Assembly (NCBI GenBank): GCA_003116975.1
Contig: BGKB01000143.1
Location: forward strand, 1-64,000
DNA length: 64,000 nucleotides
Direction of reading: 5' to 3'
From: Aurantiochytrium sp. KH105
Lineage: Eukaryota > Sar > Bigyra > Thraustochytrida > Thraustochytriidae
A model generated the notes under the pieces. The model was given only the letters and a program-made list of their open reading frames with translations, had not been told where the DNA came from and ran no database searches. A program made the translations under genes and the position numbers. Below are positions 1,479 through 10,766 of this stretch, in pieces. Position 1 is the stretch's first letter. Each line of letters starts with the position of its first letter.

Positions 1479-4400
1479 TCAAAAGCTCTTCGACGCCAGC
1501 GTATTGACGCCGGTCCAGCCCTGCTCCTGCGCGTCGATCGCATCGACACCGAAACGCTCAAGTTGTTCGCGAGTGCGCTCTAGCAGCAGTGTTTCCGCCG
1601 TGTTGAGATCGCCGTCCAGATCCGAGACGCTCAAAAGGGTCCGCTCCGCAATTCGAAAGCGGCCCTCCTGAAATGCGTGCAGGGCCACCTCATAACGATT
1701 AATACGAGCAGTCTCGCGCGCTAGCATCGGTATGTCGGTCACAGGATGGAAGCTCTTGAGGACATCCGCCTGAGACTCCATCGTAGGCGTTGCATATAGT
1801 GATCGTCCTGCGCCGTTCGACTCTCCATTCAGCGTCAGATGGGATCCTTGCGAGGACTCTTGGTCGAGCGGCTCGCTCTGTGGGCTATCCGAAGCGTCCG
1901 AGTCTCGAGAAGGCGGCGACGGCGCCGCTTTGGGGAGCAAGGGTCTGAACGACGTGAAGAAGAACTTGCTATTCTTGCCCTGCCGCCGTCTAGTTTTATC
2001 GCGTTTGCCAGCATCGGCACTGCCCCGAGCGTCCCGTCTTTTTCTGCCCTGATCCATGGCATCGTTTTGTGCATCTTGTTCATCGGCGTCGGATTCTCCA
2101 TCCGCATCCTCATCCTCATCCTCATCTTCCTCTTCGTCGCTTTCGCTATCGCTATCGCTGTCCGTCTCTGTCGCCACGTATGGCGCCAAAAACTTGCACT
2201 CGATCGGTTCTTTTTGTAAGACGACTTCGAAAATGCGGGCCGCCTGCTCTTTACCCTTGACTTGAACGAGGTCGAGCTCACGGAGTAAAAAGCTATGACG
2301 AAACGCGCACAAGGAGAGAGTATCTTCCGAGCATATAATTTGCGTGCCATACAGTTTGGAAAGACCCTCGAGACGACTTGCCATGTTCACCGCATCGCCA
2401 AGACTTCCGAACTTGTACTTTGTCAGCGACCCGATCGTCCCACTCAAAACAGGCCCCGTGTGGATGCCAATACGCACACGGAACTCGCCCAGGTCGTATT
2501 TTTCCTTGAACTCTTCTTGAAATTGCACCGAGAGAGTCCTGAGATACTGCTGCTGGGCGATCGCCGCGCTCAGCGCCTTGGTCGCATGGTCGTCAATCGT
2601 TTCTGGTGTATTCCAGAACGCAAGCAGACCATCTCCCTGGATCTCGGCCACCACGCCCTCGTACTGCTCCACGATGGCTGTCATAGCCGTCAGGTAGCGC
2701 GTAATGAGATACATGAGGTCCACGCGCTCCAGTTTTTCTGCGATCGATGTGAATCCCTGAATGTCGGAAAACATGGTCGTGACCACACGCTCCTTCACGT
2801 TGAGGCGCCGCCCGCGCTTGGTCCGCAAAATGTTACGTACCACGGCTGCTGGAACAAAACGCGCAAAGGTTTCCAGAGCATAGTACATCTTTACAAATTC
2901 GCGCTGCGTGCGCGCCACTTCCTTGATACGTGATCGTTCCTCCCGCGGCATGACCGCGCCCTTGTTCCGAAACTCCAGTTTGGTCAATCGCCGTATCTCG
3001 GACGTCAGTCGACGGATAGGACGCGCCAGCAGCGCGGCAATGACGTAGGAGAGTACCAAGGTCAGTAAAATCAGCCCCACCTCGACGCCAGCGCTTGTGC
3101 CCGCGAGTTTTTGTAGCACTTGATTCGTTTCCTCGGTGCTCCGCTGAAGCTGTTCCCGTGGCTCTTGCAGTGCATTCGTGTAGTTGACAATGCTCCACGA
3201 TACAGGCACGGCCAAGACAGCGCGCCAGATAAAAGGATACAAGACGGGGAAGTTATCGTCGGTCGATTCGCCTGACAGGGGACCCACGGTCAAGACCACG
3301 CAATCGCGATAAAGCTGATCAAGGTTGGCGTCAAAGTCAGCGTCATCGTCACTCACGTTGCAAAGGGTGCCATCGCTTGCGTTCCGAATCACCGTAATGG
3401 ACTCGTTGGCTTCCAAATTCAAATTCTCCACCACGTTTGTGTACTGACGGACAATCTCACTTTCGGTGTAATTCATGGCGAACACGGGCGCTGTGATGTT
3501 GAGCTCTCTTCCATCGACAGCACCTCCCACGAGCAGGCCGGTCTGATTGATGTCACTCTCGATCGACGGCACCGATTTGAGCACATAGAAGAATTGCGCG
3601 CACTGCGGGCAACTTAGTGATGTTGCTGCGCTTTCGTTCTGCACGCTGCGTAAAACAGAGACACTCACCGCGCTAATGGCAGACGTCAGAACATTCGTCT
3701 GCGCATACCCCTGGAAACAAGAATACGTTCCACAAAAATTGATCGGGTATGTCAGCAGGAAGCCGTATGTCAGAGATGGATCAAGATAGCCGTCCAGCCA
3801 ATACCCAAAGTTCGTGTATGCTCCAAAGCTTCGAGAGTTGTTTCCAGCCTCGGAAAGAACGTGAAGCTGCGATGAAAGTCCGCTCAGCGAAAATGCGTCA
3901 AGAGGAATGACTTGTCCTGGTTCGATCGGGCTACCATCGGTGCGGTCGAGTTCCCACAGCATCAAGTCGTTACCACTTTCGCTTAGAGCAAGTGTAAACG
4001 ACTCAGAGACGACTTGTCGATCGAAGATAAACGCATTGGGATCAATGTCTGTAGGATCCGTCCCGGAAGTGCTTGCCTGGACAATTGCGCCGCCTGCGAC
4101 GAGACTGACAAAGCTTGAGTTCAGCGTCTGAAATAGCATGTTTGACGTCAGTGACGAAATGAGGGTGGTGTTATCGGTGGCTTGCTGCAGCGAGTCCATC
4201 AGCGTCAGCGTTGAAAGAATGGTCTGAAAGGAGTCCGAAATGATGCTCAGGTCGATCAGGCTCACCGTCGTCTGCAGCGTTGAGGCGAGCTGAGTTCTGC
4301 TGTTGTCAAGCTCCACAAAGAGAGAAGTGTTGATGAAAACATTGAGGCTGCTGTTGCACGATTGCTCGTACGTATCCTGTATCCTTTGCGTAAAGAAGTG

Positions 4401-5219
4401 CTGCACCACAATGATAATGATCGCACCGAAGAGCACGAGCGCCATGAAGGGATACATGATAGCGTCGCGCAGCTGAAATTGCGCTGCGCGATTGCATAGG
4501 CACCAGCACGTCCGCTCGCGGTTTTGCCTAATGTTACGCTCAATGTCAATTTCTAGTTTGCTCTTTCGGCGCCCCAATATGCGTGAATCGCCCGCGCTCC
4601 ATCGACCTGTCGAATACATGCTGTCTGACTTGTCCGAAGCCATCCCCGCGGCCGCGGCCCACGCGGCCTGGTCGAGTACAGGGCCGTTTGACGATGCATC
4701 ACCAGGTGTGAGCATATCAATCTCTTGTCCTAATTGACTCAAGCTGTGCATACGCTTTTGCACGGACGCCATGACACTTTGCGTGCGCGCCATACGTGTG
4801 GCAAATTCTTCGTTTAAAACGGCATCCTGGGCTTCGAGGTCCGCGGGCGCAGACATGGCGGCCTGGGAGATGCCTTCGGTCCATGCAACTCTTTTCTCCG
4901 CGTCATACATAATGCCAGGCCCGCGTCCGCCGAGAGGCGGGCTCGAAGCGATATTGCTGAGGCCAGGCGGTTCATCGAAATGTGATATCGGGTTTTCTTT
5001 TTCCGCCTCGCCACCAAAGGCGGTTTTCTTGGCATCGAGTCGAGGCCCAGCGCAATCATCTTCGCCCTCTTGTTTCTCGTCGCCATCCTGTTCTCGCAGC
5101 ACTTGCTGCCTTTCTTCCGCGTCTTCCTCTGACCGCAAGGTCCTCTCCGAGGCCGACTTTTCGTCGTCACGCTTGTCCTGCGTCCGTCTCTTCGCCGCGG
5201 CATCTCGCTCGTCCTCCAT
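1479..5219 (-). CDS. Receptor-type class III nucleotidyl cyclase (two TM, HAMP)
   Basis: The 1246-residue product has an acidic cytosolic N-terminus, TM1 at about 252-276, an ectodomain of about 430 residues, TM2 at about 710-734, a HAMP-type linker (ARPIRRLTSEIRRLTKLEF), a short signalling helix (FARFVPAAVVRNIL) and a class III cyclase domain at about 800-1000. Catalytic motifs are FSDIQGFTS (first metal Asp), EIQGDGLLAFW (second metal Asp) and GSLGDAVNMASRLEG (transition-state Asn and Arg). A Glu occupies the purine-lysine site and a Gly the Asp/Cys site, so ATP or GTP preference cannot be read off. An Asp/Glu/Ser-rich stretch (about 1017-1043) and a TPR-like helical pair (about 1170-1200) follow. 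The frame is open upstream to 5588, but that part is Arg/Ala-rich low complexity; the ATG at 5219 (MEDERDAAAKRR) is the likely start. Probable role: a plasma-membrane sensor producing a cyclic nucleotide. Confidence 0.9.
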   Translation of the reverse strand: MEDERDAAAKRRTQDKRDDEKSASERTLRSEEDAEERQQVLREQDGDEKQEGEDDCAGPRLDAKKTAFGGEAEKENPISHFDEPPGLSNIASSPPLGGRGPGIMYDAEKRVAWTEGISQAAMSAPADLEAQDAVLNEEFATRMARTQSVMASVQKRMHSLSQLGQEIDMLTPGDASSNGPVLDQAAWAAAAGMASDKSDSMYSTGRWSAGDSRILGRRKSKLEIDIERNIRQNRERTCWCLCNRAAQFQLRDAIMYPFMALVLFGAIIIIVVQHFFTQRIQDTYEQSCNSSLNVFINTSLFVELDNSRTQLASTLQTTVSLIDLSIISDSFQTILSTLTLMDSLQQATDNTTLISSLTSNMLFQTLNSSFVSLVAGGAIVQASTSGTDPTDIDPNAFIFDRQVVSESFTLALSESGNDLMLWELDRTDGSPIEPGQVIPLDAFSLSGLSSQLHVLSEAGNNSRSFGAYTNFGYWLDGYLDPSLTYGFLLTYPINFCGTYSCFQGYAQTNVLTSAISAVSVSVLRSVQNESAATSLSCPQCAQFFYVLKSVPSIESDINQTGLLVGGAVDGRELNITAPVFAMNYTESEIVRQYTNVVENLNLEANESITVIRNASDGTLCNVSDDDADFDANLDQLYRDCVVLTVGPLSGESTDDNFPVLYPFIWRAVLAVPVSWSIVNYTNALQEPREQLQRSTEETNQVLQKLAGTSAGVEVGLILLTLVLSYVIAALLARPIRRLTSEIRRLTKLEFRNKGAVMPREERSRIKEVARTQREFVKMYYALETFARFVPAAVVRNILRTKRGRRLNVKERVVTTMFSDIQGFTSIAEKLERVDLMYLITRYLTAMTAIVEQYEGVVAEIQGDGLLAFWNTPETIDDHATKALSAAIAQQQYLRTLSVQFQEEFKEKYDLGEFRVRIGIHTGPVLSGTIGSLTKYKFGSLGDAVNMASRLEGLSKLYGTQIICSEDTLSLCAFRHSFLLRELDLVQVKGKEQAARIFEVVLQKEPIECKFLAPYVATETDSDSDSESDEEEDEDEDEDADGESDADEQDAQNDAMDQGRKRRDARGSADAGKRDKTRRRQGKNSKFFFTSFRPLLPKAAPSPPSRDSDASDSPQSEPLDQESSQGSHLTLNGESNGAGRSLYATPTMESQADVLKSFHPVTDIPMLARETARINRYEVALHAFQEGRFRIAERTLLSVSDLDGDLNTAETLLLERTREQLERFGVDAIDAQEQGWTGVNTLASKSF

Positions 5220-5735
5220 GGTGCGTCCGCGTCTTCGTCTTGCTCTCGCGGCGCGGCGCGCGCTCCCTGCAGGCGCTGGCGCCTGGCCCCGGCGCTCGCT
5301 CGCTCGCGCGCACGGGCTCGCGACGCGGACGACGCGCGGTCGCGCGCGCGAACTTGCGCAGCTCGAATCTGCGAACTTCGGCCCCTCGTCAGGCAGGGCA
5401 GGGCAGGCCAGGGCACCTCTCGCTCGCGCAGGGCGCCGTGCCTGCGCGATGGGGCGCGCGGTCTGCAGGTCCGCGCCGCCGCGGAGAGAGCCCGAGCAGA
5501 TGCAGCTTTGCCGGGTCGGGAGGGAGGGGTTCGAGCAAGGATTGCACTGTGAAAAACGAGTCAAGTGTCCAGGGCCGCTCGCTCTCACCGGTCACTTTGG
5601 CCATCATTCGGCAACATCGTCAAACTTCTTCGTGCATCGATCCATTATCATCATCATCACTATGGAGTCTCATTGCGAACCTGTCCCGCGTGGAGCGCTG
5701 CAGGCAGGCGGTTGGGGGTGAAGAGACTAATTAGC
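5220..5735. other. Intergenic: cyclase promoter and 3' flank of the B12/PP-loop gene
   Basis: The region is very GC-rich near the cyclase start and contains a short run of ATC/ATT units at about 5641-5660. Minus-strand frames continue open through much of it by composition only. No RNA gene or conserved motif was recognised. Confidence 0.4.
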
Positions 5736-7685
5736 CTAGCTCTTGGCGCGGCGGCGGCGACGGCGCAACATTAAGGGATCGGGAAAGCGAACGATCGTGT
5801 GGAATTCGCCGCACTCGCCAAAGGTATCGGGACCATTCGGGACAGACTTGAGACGGTCCACGAGTTCCGCCGTGTACGGCGTGCCGGTTTCGAGGGCGAT
5901 GCCTCTGGTGCTCAGCGTTGAGACGGCCGCGTCGTCAATATTGCACGCTGAGACCGTTACCGTGGCCTCGAGATCGTCGAGTGCCGTCCAGAGCTGCTGC
6001 TCGAGCTGCGCATAGGGAACCTTGAAGAGAGGGAACTCGCTTCTCCAAGAAGCAAAATTCGCCGCACGCCAGGCCCGAATGTCTTCCAAATGCAAGTCGC
6101 CAAAGACGAGACACACTTGCTCACGAGCAAAGTTGTACTCGCGCAACAGAAGCTCCAAACTGCGCTCCACGGTCTCCACGTAGTCTGTGTTAGCGCTCGC
6201 CCGCGGAAGCGGAGCCACGAGCAAGTCAACGTCGAGCGAGCGCGCTTGGTCCATAATGTCAGAAAGGGGGACTTCTTGCTCGGGGACCACGTTCGTATTG
6301 GCGTCAAAGGTCGTGAGGAGGACGATTTTGTCCCCCGCATCGGCCGTCTCACGCGTGCGAAGATATGTCAAAAAAGAGTCTTTGCCACCACTCCAGAACA
6401 CAATGCGCAGCTTGGCGTCCGGGTCTGCTGCGAGGCCTCGCTTGCGACGAGGAACGGGCCGCGCACGAAGCAGACGCGGGGCTTGGATCGGATCCGATCG
6501 ATGGAGCTTGCGCTGGTCAGCTGGCACAGCGCAGTGACCGTACGGGCAATGACGGCACGCCTTGCCGCAGCAATAGCCCCGTTCGAGAGCAGTTTGCGCT
6601 GTAAAGACCATGTATCCTGTAGCGGGGTCAGTATAAGTCTTGTCACCGCGCTCCATGGCGGCTTGATGCAGGTCTTCGAGATCGCGAAGCCGCTTCGTCT
6701 CGGCAGCTTCGCGTTCCGTCTCTGAAGGAGGCGCCTGCGTTTCAGCAGGACGAACATATGGCTTCCAAGGGAAGCCCTCCTTGGCAGCACCGGGTTTCGC
6801 GGCATTGGCGGGATGCAGCCAATCCACCAGCCACTCAAGGCAGTCCACGAGACGTGGCCCGGGGCGATTGAACATTTGGTTGCCGTCAACAAGGGCGACA
6901 TGATCTTGCTGTACAGCGCGCAGAGAAGGCCACCACGTGGAGGACTCCATGTCACGTGTAAGGCTCTCTGTTTTTGCAAGATCAAGGCCGCAAGGGCAGA
7001 CGATGATTGCGTCGGGGTCATCCTCTTGCAGACGTTCGGTCGGGATGGCAAACGATTTACTTCCGGGATCATCGTTTACGCCCTGGCGTGCGCCTGCCAT
7101 GCGGAGGATCTCGGGCGTCCAGTGTCCACCGACGTAGATAGGGTCGGGCCATTCGATGAAGGCGATGTTTCTGAAGCGAGGCTCCCCGCTCGCGGCGACA
7201 CGTTGACAAGCAGCGTCTACTCGCGCTTGAAGTCTTGCGCGCGAGGTGACGGCTTCCTTGGCGAGTCCGACAGCATTGCCAACTTCATTGAGAGATTCCA
7301 AGACCTCGTCCAAGGTGTGCGGGTTCAGGCTAATGACGCGTGGACGTGGGTCGAGCTGTCGCGCGAGCTGGACGACCTCGTTCATGTCAATGGAACATAC
7401 CTGACAAAGACTCTGCGTGATGATAACATCGGGCTTGAGTTCTTTGAGTAAGCCGGCATTCACCGTGTAGAGACTCTCATTGTTTGCGAGTGCTGAGCGA
7501 ACCTGGTCGTCCACCTCGCGCGGCGTCGTAAAGGTCGTCTTTTGCGCGGTCAGAACGGGAAGGTGCTGGACCTGCGGCGGCCAGTCGCATTCGTGCGATC
7601 TGCCCACGAGCAAATGCGCGCCTCCGATTTCGCAAAGCGCCTCCGTGGCGCTCGGCAGCAGCGAGACCACGCGGAGTGCGCTCAT
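5736..7685 (-). CDS. BtuF-like / DUF5522-type / DUF71 (COG2102) PP-loop ATPase fusion, putative B12 salvage
   Basis: This 649-residue single-frame protein has three parts. Residues 1 to about 290 match the cobalamin/iron substrate-binding protein fold (SLLPSATEALCEIGG, GRSHECDWPP, EWPDPIYVGGHWTPEI) but have no signal peptide, so the protein should be cytosolic. Residues about 345-385 hold a Cys-rich segment of DUF5522 type (GYCCGKACRHCPYGH). Residues about 425-635 are a PP-loop ATP pyrophosphatase of the DUF71/COG2102 family, with FWSGGKDSFL, FGDLHLEDIRAW and GECGEFHT. DUF71 proteins include the diphthamide amidase Dph6 and a separate group predicted from comparative genomics to act in B12 salvage next to btuF. 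The fused BtuF domain favours the latter; this is inference. The protein ends in a basic RRRRRRAKS tail. It is divergent from the GRAM gene across 330 bp. Confidence 0.88.
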   Translation of the reverse strand: MSALRVVSLLPSATEALCEIGGAHLLVGRSHECDWPPQVQHLPVLTAQKTTFTTPREVDDQVRSALANNESLYTVNAGLLKELKPDVIITQSLCQVCSIDMNEVVQLARQLDPRPRVISLNPHTLDEVLESLNEVGNAVGLAKEAVTSRARLQARVDAACQRVAASGEPRFRNIAFIEWPDPIYVGGHWTPEILRMAGARQGVNDDPGSKSFAIPTERLQEDDPDAIIVCPCGLDLAKTESLTRDMESSTWWPSLRAVQQDHVALVDGNQMFNRPGPRLVDCLEWLVDWLHPANAAKPGAAKEGFPWKPYVRPAETQAPPSETEREAAETKRLRDLEDLHQAAMERGDKTYTDPATGYMVFTAQTALERGYCCGKACRHCPYGHCAVPADQRKLHRSDPIQAPRLLRARPVPRRKRGLAADPDAKLRIVFWSGGKDSFLTYLRTRETADAGDKIVLLTTFDANTNVVPEQEVPLSDIMDQARSLDVDLLVAPLPRASANTDYVETVERSLELLLREYNFAREQVCLVFGDLHLEDIRAWRAANFASWRSEFPLFKVPYAQLEQQLWTALDDLEATVTVSACNIDDAAVSTLSTRGIALETGTPYTAELVDRLKSVPNGPDTFGECGEFHTIVRFPDPLMLRRRRRRAKS

Positions 7686-8015: not shown

Positions 8016-10766
8016 ATGGATGAGGCGAGCGCGCGCGCTGGCACGGAGGAAGACGACGCGCAGCACGGCGCGGCCATCCTCGCGGAAACTGCCAGCCTGC
8101 TCATGGATAACGGCGACGACGACGACGACAACGACAGGCAGCACCAGGAGCAGCGAGAGCGGCAGGATGCACCGCCAGAACCAGCTTCGTTGACAACGAC
8201 GACAACGACGAGCAGAGGGGGAGAAGGGGGACGAGGAGAACCAAAGGACGCAGGCCCGGGCGCTAGACTAGATGAAATTGGTGGAGCTCCAGACGCAGAC
8301 TCGCAGGAAGGCGACGCTGACGTGCTATTGGCGCAAACAGCAGCCCTTCTCGCCGGGAGCGAGGACGACGATACGGAAACCGAGCCGAGCCGTGACATTG
8401 CAAAAGAGCCCCCATCCGGCGCGAGGGCGAGCAGCTCGACCTCTCTGCCTTCTTCCTCTCGTGCTGCTGCTGCTGCTGCTGCCTTTCCTCCTTCCGGATT
8501 GGCAGAAGAGTCGTCAACATCATCATCTTTGCGGCCGCTGCAATCGTCAACATTGGCCTCATCGTCGACGGCACCGACTTCGTCGTCCTTGTCGATGACG
8601 GCAATCAAAAGCCCAGTTTCTGAATTTTACTCGAGACCGGAGAACGCATTGAAATCAGTAGTAGGAGCATCCAGTTCGTCGCAACTAGCCGACGATGCTG
8701 GCGACGTGCGCGAAGAGCGCGCCGACAGCACACTCTCTGAAGAGAGAAACGGGGCTGAGCTCCTGGCGGAGACAGAGGCGCTTCTTACAGGCGAGACTCT
8801 TCAAGAGTCAAAGACCTCAGCAGGACATGCTCGAGAAGCCGTTGAGCAGGCCGTCAGAGACGAGCTTGGTCGTGTTCACAAGCGTCTTGCGAACGACGTG
8901 ACGCTGGTGTGTTCTGGTTCGGGTGTCCAATTGCGGGATCTTTTCCTTCTCGATGCCTGTCTCTTTGTTCCCCTTCGGGTTGATCTTTCAAATAATGATG
9001 CGCTCGAACAGATTACCGAGGCCCTCTCTGATCACGGGTACGAAGTTCGTGCGAGGGATGAGGGCCAACTACGCGCGAGTTACACGCCAACACCGGAAGA
9101 ATTGCACCGCTTATCGAGCTCTGTTAACCTTGCTGCAAGGACTACGACTACGCCGCCTGGTTCGCCAAATTCAAATTCGATCGGTCCTTCCTCCTCTTCT
9201 TCCTCGTCATCATCGTCAGCATCATCATTATCGACAACACCAACAAGAACAACAGCAGCAAATGCAGGATCGGGTCAACCTCTGCAGCTTCAAGCGCCAT
9301 CGATTGGTGACGAACCGCGCGAGTTTGTGTCCAAGGCCATGAATTTTTCCCTTGGCAAGTTGCAGCGCGCCCTTCAGCACGTCGATGCCTTGCAACTAAA
9401 GGCTTCCTCGGGGCGACCCTTGAATGAGGAGGCAAGCGTGCAAAACAGGCCTGATGCCGGCTCGGTGTCAGTCGAACCATACGCCAGCGCAGCTGTTGGT
9501 GTAGAGGTGGAAAGCAAGCAACGTGGGATTTTCATTTGCGGTGCGGAGCATGAAACCGAGCCGCTCCTCAAAGGTCTTATCCAGCGCGGCATCACGCGAC
9601 TTCCGAGTGGGGTGGCCTCCTTACACGCAGATTATGTGCGAGACCTCGAGGAAGCCTGGCGCCTTGGCGCTGAGCGTAAGTTGCACGCGCTTGTGCGTCC
9701 CCAAGAGAAGGAAATGCTTGCTCTCGAATTCCAGACGGCGCAGCTTGTGACTCTCATCAAGGCGGAATACAGGGCCTTTGGAGTGCAAATTCCAGAGCTT
9801 GAGCGCCCCCCCTTTGTTTCGCAGCTTCCGCTGACGTACGAAGACGACGACGATGGTGGACAAGAAGAAAACATCGGGTCCAAGGGAGATGGTGGGGAGA
9901 TGCACGCGGATGGCAGCAGTAACACAGACGATGAGCGTGCAGGAGCTGAAGCCGAAGACGTTGCACTTCGTTCAAGCTTATCGCGGCAATGGTCGCGCGA
10001 GGTAAGCGCGCGTGTGGCGCGCAAAGAACGGCAGCTGGAGATGCGACAAGACGTTTGTGCGCGAAACAAGACTCTACTGATTCAACGCCTCCGCGACAGT
10101 GAGGTGGCGCGAACGTCGCGCGACACACTTGTGCTGTGCAATGAGATGAACATCAGCCCAAGTGTTGTGTTGGGCCATGTATCCTGCATCTTTGAGCGAC
10201 GACCCGGGAAGCTCTTTGTCACTTACGACCACATCCTCTTCAATTCGCGTGTGCTCGGATTTAAGCGATCTCTGGCTGTTCCCCTGACCGATGTTGCCTC
10301 GTACGGAAGCGCCCAGGCCACGGGGGCGGCCACAATCGTCGGCGCGGCTGCGCTCGTAATTCAGGTTTTGTCAACCGGGGCGTCGATCCGCTTCCTCATG
10401 AGCAGTAAGGTCGACTGCGATCGTGTCCTCGCTCTCCTGCAGCAAATTGAGGTGATGCGTCGCGCAAGTGCCGCAGAGCGTCAACGACGGTCCTCGCACG
10501 AATCGAAAACAAGCGACTCGGAGGCCCAGCGCACGGGAGGTGAACTGTCGCGGAGATCGGCCGGGGCTGACGTGCGCCCGGACCTTCATCGCCGTCGCAG
10601 TGCGGACTCTCAAGCAAGCGAGAGTAGTCATCACGTCGGGGCGGGAAATACCGCTGGAAGCGGTGGCCTCGGGACACCGCCGACGGAACCCTCGGATGAT
10701 TCGGGCGCCGACCTGCAGAGAATGATGGCAAGCACTTTCCTCAACGACGACGAGGAAGCGTTTTGA
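8016..10766 (+). CDS. GRAM-domain protein with a long disordered N-terminus
   Basis: The ATG at 8016 sits in a good eukaryotic context (GGCACCATGG) and opens a 916-residue frame. The first 270 residues are acidic, Ser-rich and disordered and contain three copies of a short motif: AILAETASLL (20), VLLAQTAALL (103) and ELLAETEALL (248). A mixed helical segment with Ser and Thr runs follows. Residues about 715-812 form a GRAM/PH-type fold (FERRPGKLFVTYDHILFNSR, then a strand-rich stretch), a domain that generally binds membrane lipids or proteins. The tail is basic and Ser-rich and ends DDEEAF. There is no TM segment. A membrane-recruited adaptor role is inferred; I cannot assign an orthologue. 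The stop is followed at once by AATAAA. Confidence 0.85.
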   Translation: MDEASARAGTEEDDAQHGAAILAETASLLMDNGDDDDDNDRQHQEQRERQDAPPEPASLTTTTTTSRGGEGGRGEPKDAGPGARLDEIGGAPDADSQEGDADVLLAQTAALLAGSEDDDTETEPSRDIAKEPPSGARASSSTSLPSSSRAAAAAAAFPPSGLAEESSTSSSLRPLQSSTLASSSTAPTSSSLSMTAIKSPVSEFYSRPENALKSVVGASSSSQLADDAGDVREERADSTLSEERNGAELLAETEALLTGETLQESKTSAGHAREAVEQAVRDELGRVHKRLANDVTLVCSGSGVQLRDLFLLDACLFVPLRVDLSNNDALEQITEALSDHGYEVRARDEGQLRASYTPTPEELHRLSSSVNLAARTTTTPPGSPNSNSIGPSSSSSSSSSSASSLSTTPTRTTAANAGSGQPLQLQAPSIGDEPREFVSKAMNFSLGKLQRALQHVDALQLKASSGRPLNEEASVQNRPDAGSVSVEPYASAAVGVEVESKQRGIFICGAEHETEPLLKGLIQRGITRLPSGVASLHADYVRDLEEAWRLGAERKLHALVRPQEKEMLALEFQTAQLVTLIKAEYRAFGVQIPELERPPFVSQLPLTYEDDDDGGQEENIGSKGDGGEMHADGSSNTDDERAGAEAEDVALRSSLSRQWSREVSARVARKERQLEMRQDVCARNKTLLIQRLRDSEVARTSRDTLVLCNEMNISPSVVLGHVSCIFERRPGKLFVTYDHILFNSRVLGFKRSLAVPLTDVASYGSAQATGAATIVGAAALVIQVLSTGASIRFLMSSKVDCDRVLALLQQIEVMRRASAAERQRRSSHESKTSDSEAQRTGGELSRRSAGADVRPDLHRRRSADSQASESSHHVGAGNTAGSGGLGTPPTEPSDDSGADLQRMMASTFLNDDEEAF

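Follow-up and report, generated by a model that had tools for sequence, protein, structure and literature searches.

A thraustochytrid gene joining BtuF-type, DUF5522 and DUF71 PP-loop modules: a candidate cobamide-handling enzyme

Background

What would a single-celled eukaryote do with a vitamin B12-binding type of domain joined, in one reading frame, to a PP-loop ATPase? The question is raised by a gene at positions 5736 to 7685 (minus strand) of a 64,000-nucleotide stretch of Aurantiochytrium sp. KH105 DNA (contig BGKB01000143.1, positions 1 to 64,000; hereafter 'the window'). Its product, the fusion protein, carries a BtuF-type substrate-binding domain, a DUF5522 segment and a DUF71 PP-loop domain. 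We propose with moderate confidence that it is a cytosolic, ATP-dependent cobamide-handling enzyme, most likely engaged in cobamide salvage or remodeling. In support of this proposal are bacterial DUF5522-DUF71 sister proteins, bacterial loci in which DUF71 adjoins a BtuF-like gene, a His at position 188 of the PP-loop domain, and a host genome with MetH, methylmalonyl-CoA mutase, CobS and CobT, in which we found no CbiB, CobU or CbiZ. The literature on DUF71 and cobamides, algal remodeling and eukaryotic BtuF-like proteins gave no title on such a fusion among the matches listed, in searches not aimed at the fusion itself; the name DUF5522 was not found in the literature searched.

Three modules in one reading frame

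The gene and its modules are as follows.

5736 to 7685, minus strand: whole fusion gene, one open frame of 649 amino acids, start MSALRVVSLLPSATEA
6885 to 7670, minus strand: BtuF-type domain (Peripla_BP_2, class III substrate-binding fold), residues 6-267, by Pfam, AlphaFold2 model and profile
6534 to 6671, minus strand: DUF5522 segment, residues 339-384, by Pfam
6546 to 6572, minus strand: four-cysteine motif CCGKACRHC (Cys372, Cys373, Cys377 and Cys380), cysteines invariant with both bacterial fusion proteins
5790 to 6404, minus strand: DUF71/COG2102 PP-loop ATP pyrophosphatase domain, residues 428-632, by weak Pfam match, bacterial fusion, profile and tree
6375 to 6392, minus strand: PP-loop SGGKDS, residues 432-437
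5796 to 5819, minus strand: GECGEFHT, residues 623-630, with His at the E188 position

Pfam recognizes two of the modules in the 649-residue protein, Peripla_BP_2 (E-value 2.8e-13, 50.3 bits, cut-off 27.5) and DUF5522 (PF17653; 6.7e-21, 74.6 bits, cut-off 25; 1.7e-20 in the genome search). The Diphthami_syn_2/DUF71 match stays under its cut-off (E-value 0.053, 13.5 bits against 23.2). The missing support comes from bacteria. When the PP-loop part was searched against 294 Planctomycetota genomes, a subset of a larger group, 47 had a match, two of which stand out at 39-40% identity. Both encode a 289-residue DUF5522-DUF71 fusion with the modules in the protist order (L096 and L097, each at 1534-2403, minus strand), 42-43% identical to the protist protein over both modules (43% for L097); they are devoid of a BtuF-like domain, and only four residues of their PP-loop domain follow GERGEFHT. 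Pfam was run on L097, which passes both cut-offs (DUF5522, 1e-20; Diphthami_syn_2, 5.5e-10, 39.6 bits) and so secures the DUF71 identity of the third module. The three modules that a first-pass annotation had read in this frame are thus confirmed. The bacterial fusion gene adjoins a nitroreductase-family gene.

A profile of PP-loop relatives matches PDB entries 3rjz/3rk1 (PF0828) at 4.5e-28; a PDB search with the single bacterial fusion sequence gave no match. The two halves of the protein were aligned and modeled separately, a joint MAFFT alignment having placed PP-loop sequences on the N-terminal domain (identities 12-22%). In the AlphaFold2 model of residues 330-649, the mean predicted local distance difference test score (pLDDT) is 83.6 and the predicted template modeling score (pTM) 0.75; the PP-loop blocks are mostly above 90 and the linker after DUF5522 is below 50.

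The fusion protein's relatives found are all bacterial or archaeal, other eukaryotic genomes lying outside the search, which could suggest bacterial contamination or a transferred gene decaying without function. We consider this highly improbable. The host assembly (76 Mb, 367 contigs) contains a second, collinear copy of the gene (G000:C77) that encodes a 99% identical protein and has flanks about 94-96% identical. The frame is intact and lies beside a 1369-residue guanylate cyclase-type frame. The copies show 33 synonymous and 9 nonsynonymous codon differences (42 in total), which, with the collinearity, argues for a conserved gene rather than a chance frame; the pattern is consistent with two haplotypes and purifying selection. 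A DUF5522 profile search of the host genome detected the fusion gene and its second copy only.

The PP-loop domain groups with B12-linked DUF71 proteins

The first-pass annotation had tentatively connected the PP-loop domain with the B12-linked branch of DUF71 rather than with the diphthine-ammonia ligase Dph6, naming a tree and a separate Dph6 gene as the evidence to seek. According to the published description of the DUF71-B12 subgroup (PMC3541065), Glu188 of Dph6 (PF0828 numbering) is replaced there by His, in the motif ENGEF/YH. The fusion protein reads GECGEFH: it has the DUF71-B12 His at 188, with C where the consensus has N, and does not conform to the Dph6 motif EGGE/DxE188. The pattern GExG[ED][FY]H occurs in 55 of 58 PP-loop sequences, the fusion protein included (a count that excludes five frames that joined the set later), and, with A allowed for the first G, in 66 of the 72 rows used for the tree, the exceptions being L190_2 (GEYGEFQ) and five Dph6 rows. 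The fusion protein resembles the subgroup in its PP-loop, its His at 188 and its relatives beside B12 transport-type genes; it differs in being very diverged, in its fusion to DUF5522 and a BtuF-like domain, and in its eukaryotic host.

In the PP-loop tree, the fusion protein joins the bacterial DUF5522-DUF71 fusions (support 100/99), followed by the unfused proteins of L164 and L165 (98/91), while the five Dph6 rows, the host's and four from haloarchaea, make up a separate clade (100/99). The branch of the fusion protein is long (3.1), so that the usual long-branch warning applies. Forcing it into Dph6 costs 31 log units, with p 0.043 in the approximately unbiased (AU) test; moving the bacterial fusions along costs 33 log units, with p 0.067. 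Because these tests reject a Dph6 placement weakly, the tree alone is not decisive, and more weight falls on motif and gene content.

Gene content concerns two other DUF71 genes of the host, each in two copies. One (L001/L002) has the motif GEGGEYE and, by Pfam, RidA-type (Ribonuc_L-PSP) domains, and is a Dph6-RidA gene. Together with the genome size, this Dph6 with its RidA-type domains marks the host as a eukaryote. The other (L003/L004, on G000:C11 and G000:C50) stands alone and shows GENGEYH, the motif of the B12 type, alongside Dph6 in one eukaryotic genome.

Could the fusion protein be a diverged Dph6 with extra domains? Both belong to the same superfamily, and the two AU values leave some room. 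The idea is nevertheless largely refuted, and we attach next to no probability to it: it is contradicted by the His in place of Glu188, the separate Dph6-RidA gene and the position outside the Dph6 clade, weak as the AU tests are. Moreover, its relatives are bacterial fusions, and bacteria, in the account of PMC3541065, make no diphthamide. The B12-linked type is supported by motif, separate gene and tree.

Gene neighborhoods of bacterial relatives

A profile search matched 80 of 343 genomes. We took 80 stretches around PP-loop or DUF5522 matches, leaving out those of G321, G141 and G024, and scanned them by tblastn, some of the queries stemming from these very loci; a DUF71 PP-loop is present in 56 stretches. 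In eight of these 56 (L162, L163, L164, L165, L168, L179, L192 and L194), a BtuF-like gene of the fusion's N-terminal type (E-value 2e-50 or better) lies 65-953 bp from DUF71 in the same orientation. They include L164 and L165, whose unfused DUF71 proteins are the sisters of the fusion's PP-loop domain, with 65 and 110 bp between DUF71 and the BtuF-like gene. Counting these eight, BtuF-, BtuC- or TonB-receptor-like genes lie within 4 kb of DUF71 in 22 of 56 loci; the order in L206, for example, is TonB receptor, ABC ATPase, Peripla_BP_2, FecCD/BtuC-type permease, DUF71. DUF5522 is present in three of the 56, two being the fusion itself.

DUF6580, a membrane-type protein, is found in eight of the 56 loci (L168:5661-6344; also L152, L162, L163, L179, L183, L192 and L194; Pfam-tested in L168 and L152), including six of the eight BtuF-adjoining ones, and often lies between DUF71 and the BtuF-like gene. 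It may be a candidate transporter of cobamides or their precursors.

Seen from DUF5522, three of 25 loci contain DUF71, namely the two fusions and L152, a cluster in the order TonB receptor-DUF71-DUF6580-DUF5522. One further locus (L229:3114-7175) is a btuD-btuC-btuF-like operon in which DUF5522 has a Peripla_BP_2 gene on either side, with FecCD/BtuC-type and ABC ATPase genes coming after them; the second Peripla_BP_2 gene has no obvious signal sequence. In the Bacteroidota species Aureibacter tunicatorum, DUF71 (L240:4004-4648) is followed five bases on, on the same strand, by DUF5522 (4654-5010). The N-terminal part of the Aureibacter DUF5522 protein is Cys-rich, with a weak Cys_rich_CWC match under the cut-off. 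A B12-dependent mutase-type (IcmF-type) gene occurs within about 5 kb in four of 26 DUF5522 loci at an E-value cut-off of 0.01 (L155:5124-8735, L227:8266-11739, L225 and L228), of which L225, L227 and L228 share one neighborhood and are not independent. The two IcmF-type genes scanned show B12-binding, MeaB and mutase domains.

Bacterial genomes thus show every pairing of the modules as neighboring genes: BtuF-DUF71, DUF71-DUF5522 and, in a single case and with a distant type of BtuF, BtuF-DUF5522. The protist gene unites the three. The fusion mirrors bacterial gene neighborhoods, as had been suggested for BtuF and DUF71 from the window, and these neighborhoods bring in DUF5522 as well. Viral contigs gave no match, and neither did plasmids searched with the DUF5522 segment; with so short a query a negative says little, as this plasmid search missed the Aureibacter DUF5522; the Aureibacter protein used as query matched only itself among plasmids.

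Cobamide genes of the host

B12-binding domains are found in two host genes, each in two copies, which Pfam identifies as MetH (L119) and methylmalonyl-CoA mutase (L120) and which indicate that the host uses B12. CobS (E-value 1.3e-41) and CobT (1.9e-103) are present on C4 and C55; in both copies they are divergent and about 500 bp apart (G000:C4:347969-350285 and G000:C55:359919-362245). CbiB, CobU and CbiZ had no match in the host genome at E-value 0.01, in an exon-by-exon search that could miss a strongly split gene; the same profiles match in 8, 6 and 5 of 14 control genomes, respectively. CbiZ (PF01955) is also absent from the Pfam matches of the fusion protein at E-value 1.

By analogy, this gene pattern is like that of algae reported to remodel pseudocobalamin: in the algal genomes analyzed by Helliwell et al. 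(2016, PMC4850488), COBT/COBS were found, and neither cbiZ nor cbiB was. Helliwell et al. also name 46 further candidate COBT/COBS remodelers.

The same genes would suit a cobamide chaperone or delivery protein, which would bind a corrinoid and use ATP to load or adenylate a partner, any remodeling proceeding through CobS. We regard this as unlikely: the known PP-loop enzymes modify their substrates rather than deliver them, and no partner was seen. In its favor, CobS and CobT are both in the host genome, and the remodeling described for Vibrio cholerae was shown to involve CobS (Mok et al. 2020, PMC7733943).

The N-terminal domain and its ligand

The first-pass annotation had called the N-terminal domain cobalamin-type and devoid of a signal peptide. 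The fold part of this claim stands. Pfam, profile and model all indicate a class III substrate-binding fold; the AlphaFold2 model of residues 1-310 reaches a mean pLDDT of 94.2 and a pTM of 0.92, and hhalign aligns the domain with Escherichia coli BtuF at 97% probability. The absence of a signal peptide holds too: the domain begins at residue 5-6, leaving no room for one. The pocket, in turn, appears to depart from that of BtuF. Four elements matter here.

7578 to 7598, minus strand: loop S30-H-E-C-D-W-P36 after strand 26-29, aligned with the BtuF Tyr50 loop and probably facing the cleft
7395 to 7406, minus strand: invariant Cys94-x-x-Cys97 after strand 87-90, on a probable cleft loop
6987 to 6998, minus strand: CPCG with invariant Cys232 after strand 226-229, on a probable cleft loop
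6852 to 6887, minus strand: DGNQMFNRPGPR signature, aligned with BtuF SDWFERASPR

In the 52-row family alignment, Glu32 and Gln91 are invariant and His31 nearly so (98% of 56 rows). Loops after these strands line the cleft in this substrate-binding fold, and the strand positions of the model would place the cysteine and His31 loops there. The pocket aromatics of E. coli BtuF are Y50, W66, W85, F162, F168 and W196 as listed in PMC5269720. Two of the six positions are aromatic in our alignment: F162 aligns with W179, which is invariant, and F168 with Y184. E. coli BtuF shares the fold and the FxR..PR signature; it is periplasmic, has an apparently different N-lobe pocket and is without the cysteine set of the N-terminal domain.

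The nearest relatives of the domain are Phycisphaerae proteins, 40-53% identical, and the fusion protein sits with their clade (support 99 in the Shimodaira-Hasegawa-like approximate likelihood ratio test, SH-aLRT, the only support computed for this quickly built tree). In many relatives a signal peptide would hardly fit, if at all: among 59 thinned relatives, 17 have an in-frame stop no more than 20 codons ahead of the aligned start, and 33 have no start giving more than 25 extra residues, the rest being undecided. BtuF-like proteins without an apparent signal peptide are found in Planctomycetota and on plasmids of Haloferax, Embleya, Qipengyuania and Cyanobacterium; they are 35-53% identical over the domain, share its invariant Cys, Glu and Trp and, unlike the protist fusion, consist of a single domain. 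A ClpB-type gene recurs beside the Phycisphaerae BtuF-like gene (31 of the 50 loci with a BtuF-like call among L007-L086; next to it on the same strand in 27; label Pfam-confirmed on one representative) and carries no information on function.

Several observations weigh against a cobamide ligand, or against a cobamide role for the protein as a whole. Cys33, Cys94, Cys97 and Cys232 are invariant in the 52-row alignment, as well as in 56 rows, a sequence feature that suggests another ligand. Four of the six BtuF pocket aromatics appear to be replaced: Y50 by E32, W85 by Q91, W196 by about S211, and W66 by about L72, beside the invariant Y73 in a gapped region of the alignment. Profile searches with the domain match periplasmic iron and heme binders as well as B12 binders, and PDB 4m7o, an 'iron-binding protein', scores better (7.3e-21) than 5ysc, a 'vitamin B12-binding protein' (1.1e-15). 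The eight operon-linked BtuF-like genes form a separate clade (98) in the domain tree. Around the Phycisphaerae BtuF-like genes, none of 80 loci has DUF71, DUF5522, BtuC, TonB receptor, another BtuF or DUF6580 within 4 kb (loci averaging 10.1 kb, short contigs giving less than 4 kb on some sides). Likewise, 21 of 25 DUF5522 loci are without DUF71, BtuF, BtuC, TonB receptor or DUF6580 within this distance, and the BtuF-family pair of L229 is only weakly similar to the fusion's N-terminal domain (E-values 1e-8 and 1e-10). The function of the DUF71-B12 subgroup is itself a prediction in PMC3541065, and the stand-alone DUF71 gene of the host (L003) may share or own the function. Finally, CbiZ-like amidohydrolase activity, the proposal made for DUF71-B12, would depend on CbiB; as CbiB and CobU were not found, a cut that yields cobyric acid would lead nowhere without the help of unrelated enzymes.

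Given the four cysteines and a nearest clade without tested neighbors, the main rival to our proposal is that the ligand of the BtuF-fold domain is a metal, an iron-sulfur cluster, heme or another chelate, and that the PP-loop domain performs an ATP-dependent modification unrelated to cobamides. The invariant cysteines on loops after strands, the iron-binder profile match, and the Phycisphaerae and DUF5522 loci away from tested genes all speak for it. We rate it as possible, though not probable. Standing against it are the DUF71 neighborhoods with BtuF-, BtuC- and TonB-receptor-like genes, the DUF5522 gene within a btuFCD-like operon, and the CobS, CobT and B12 enzyme genes of the host. The cobalamin-type label given to the domain at first pass is thus upheld for the fold and left in doubt for the pocket.

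A possible role in cobamide remodeling

Under the proposed cobamide-handling role, the protein would probably be cytosolic, as it has no signal peptide. The BtuF-fold domain would hold a corrinoid, and the PP-loop domain, of the DUF71-B12 branch, would act with ATP on the corrinoid so held or on its nucleotide loop; PP-loop enzymes transfer AMP and release pyrophosphate. The four-cysteine DUF5522 segment between these modules may serve in metal binding or redox chemistry. With 5,6-dimethylbenzimidazole, CobT and CobS might then restore the lower loop. Compared with a CbiZ-like reaction, the host gene set would better suit a route that retains the aminopropanol, as with CbiR, or one that transfers a nucleotide to cobinamide phosphate in place of CobU.

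A more specific version, which we put forward tentatively and hold to be rather doubtful, is that the fusion protein catalyzes the missing first step of cobamide remodeling in eukaryotes, replacing CbiZ/CbiR and possibly CobU. CbiZ and CbiR are bacterial cobamide remodeling enzymes that would act at this step. The corrin alpha side binds to the N-lobe of BtuF according to PMC5269720, so that a set of thiolates or His at the N-lobe could touch the lower-ligand face. With the lower-ligand side of the corrinoid turned towards the N-lobe, His31, Cys33, Cys94 and Cys97 could take the place of the lower ligand on cobalt, and the PP-loop domain would cleave or re-activate the nucleotide loop with ATP to yield a substrate for CobS and CobT. 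BtuF, DUF5522 and DUF71-B12 would then make up a single functional unit that bacteria spread over neighboring genes and the protist joins in one.

Pseudocobalamin is the B12 form made by many cyanobacteria. Some algae convert it to usable cobalamin, and the opening enzyme is not identified in the relevant parts of PMC4850488 and PMC7733943, the latter (Mok et al. 2020) describing the algal remodeling genes as not identified. The fusion offers a testable candidate for the step that makes poor B12 forms usable in some single-celled eukaryotes. It also turns a gene-neighborhood prediction of 2012 into one purifiable protein, and ties the uncharacterized DUF5522 to a BtuF/DUF71-B12 module. We would predict that the fusion, or its parts, tracks COBT/COBS across remodeling protists. 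The algal protein CBA1, compared here by its description in PMC10828217, is likewise eukaryotic, BtuF-like in its model and B12-linked; unlike the fusion protein, it is described there with a signal peptide, a predicted C-terminal membrane helix and a role in uptake.

Other features of the window

Rfam and tRNA scans across the window found none. Two large frames flank the fusion gene.

8016 to 10766, plus strand: frame of 916 amino acids, without a match in a Pfam search at 0.001
1479 to 5588, minus strand: frame of 1369 amino acids containing the catalytic domain of an adenylate/guanylate cyclase; about 150 bp separate its upper end from the fusion gene

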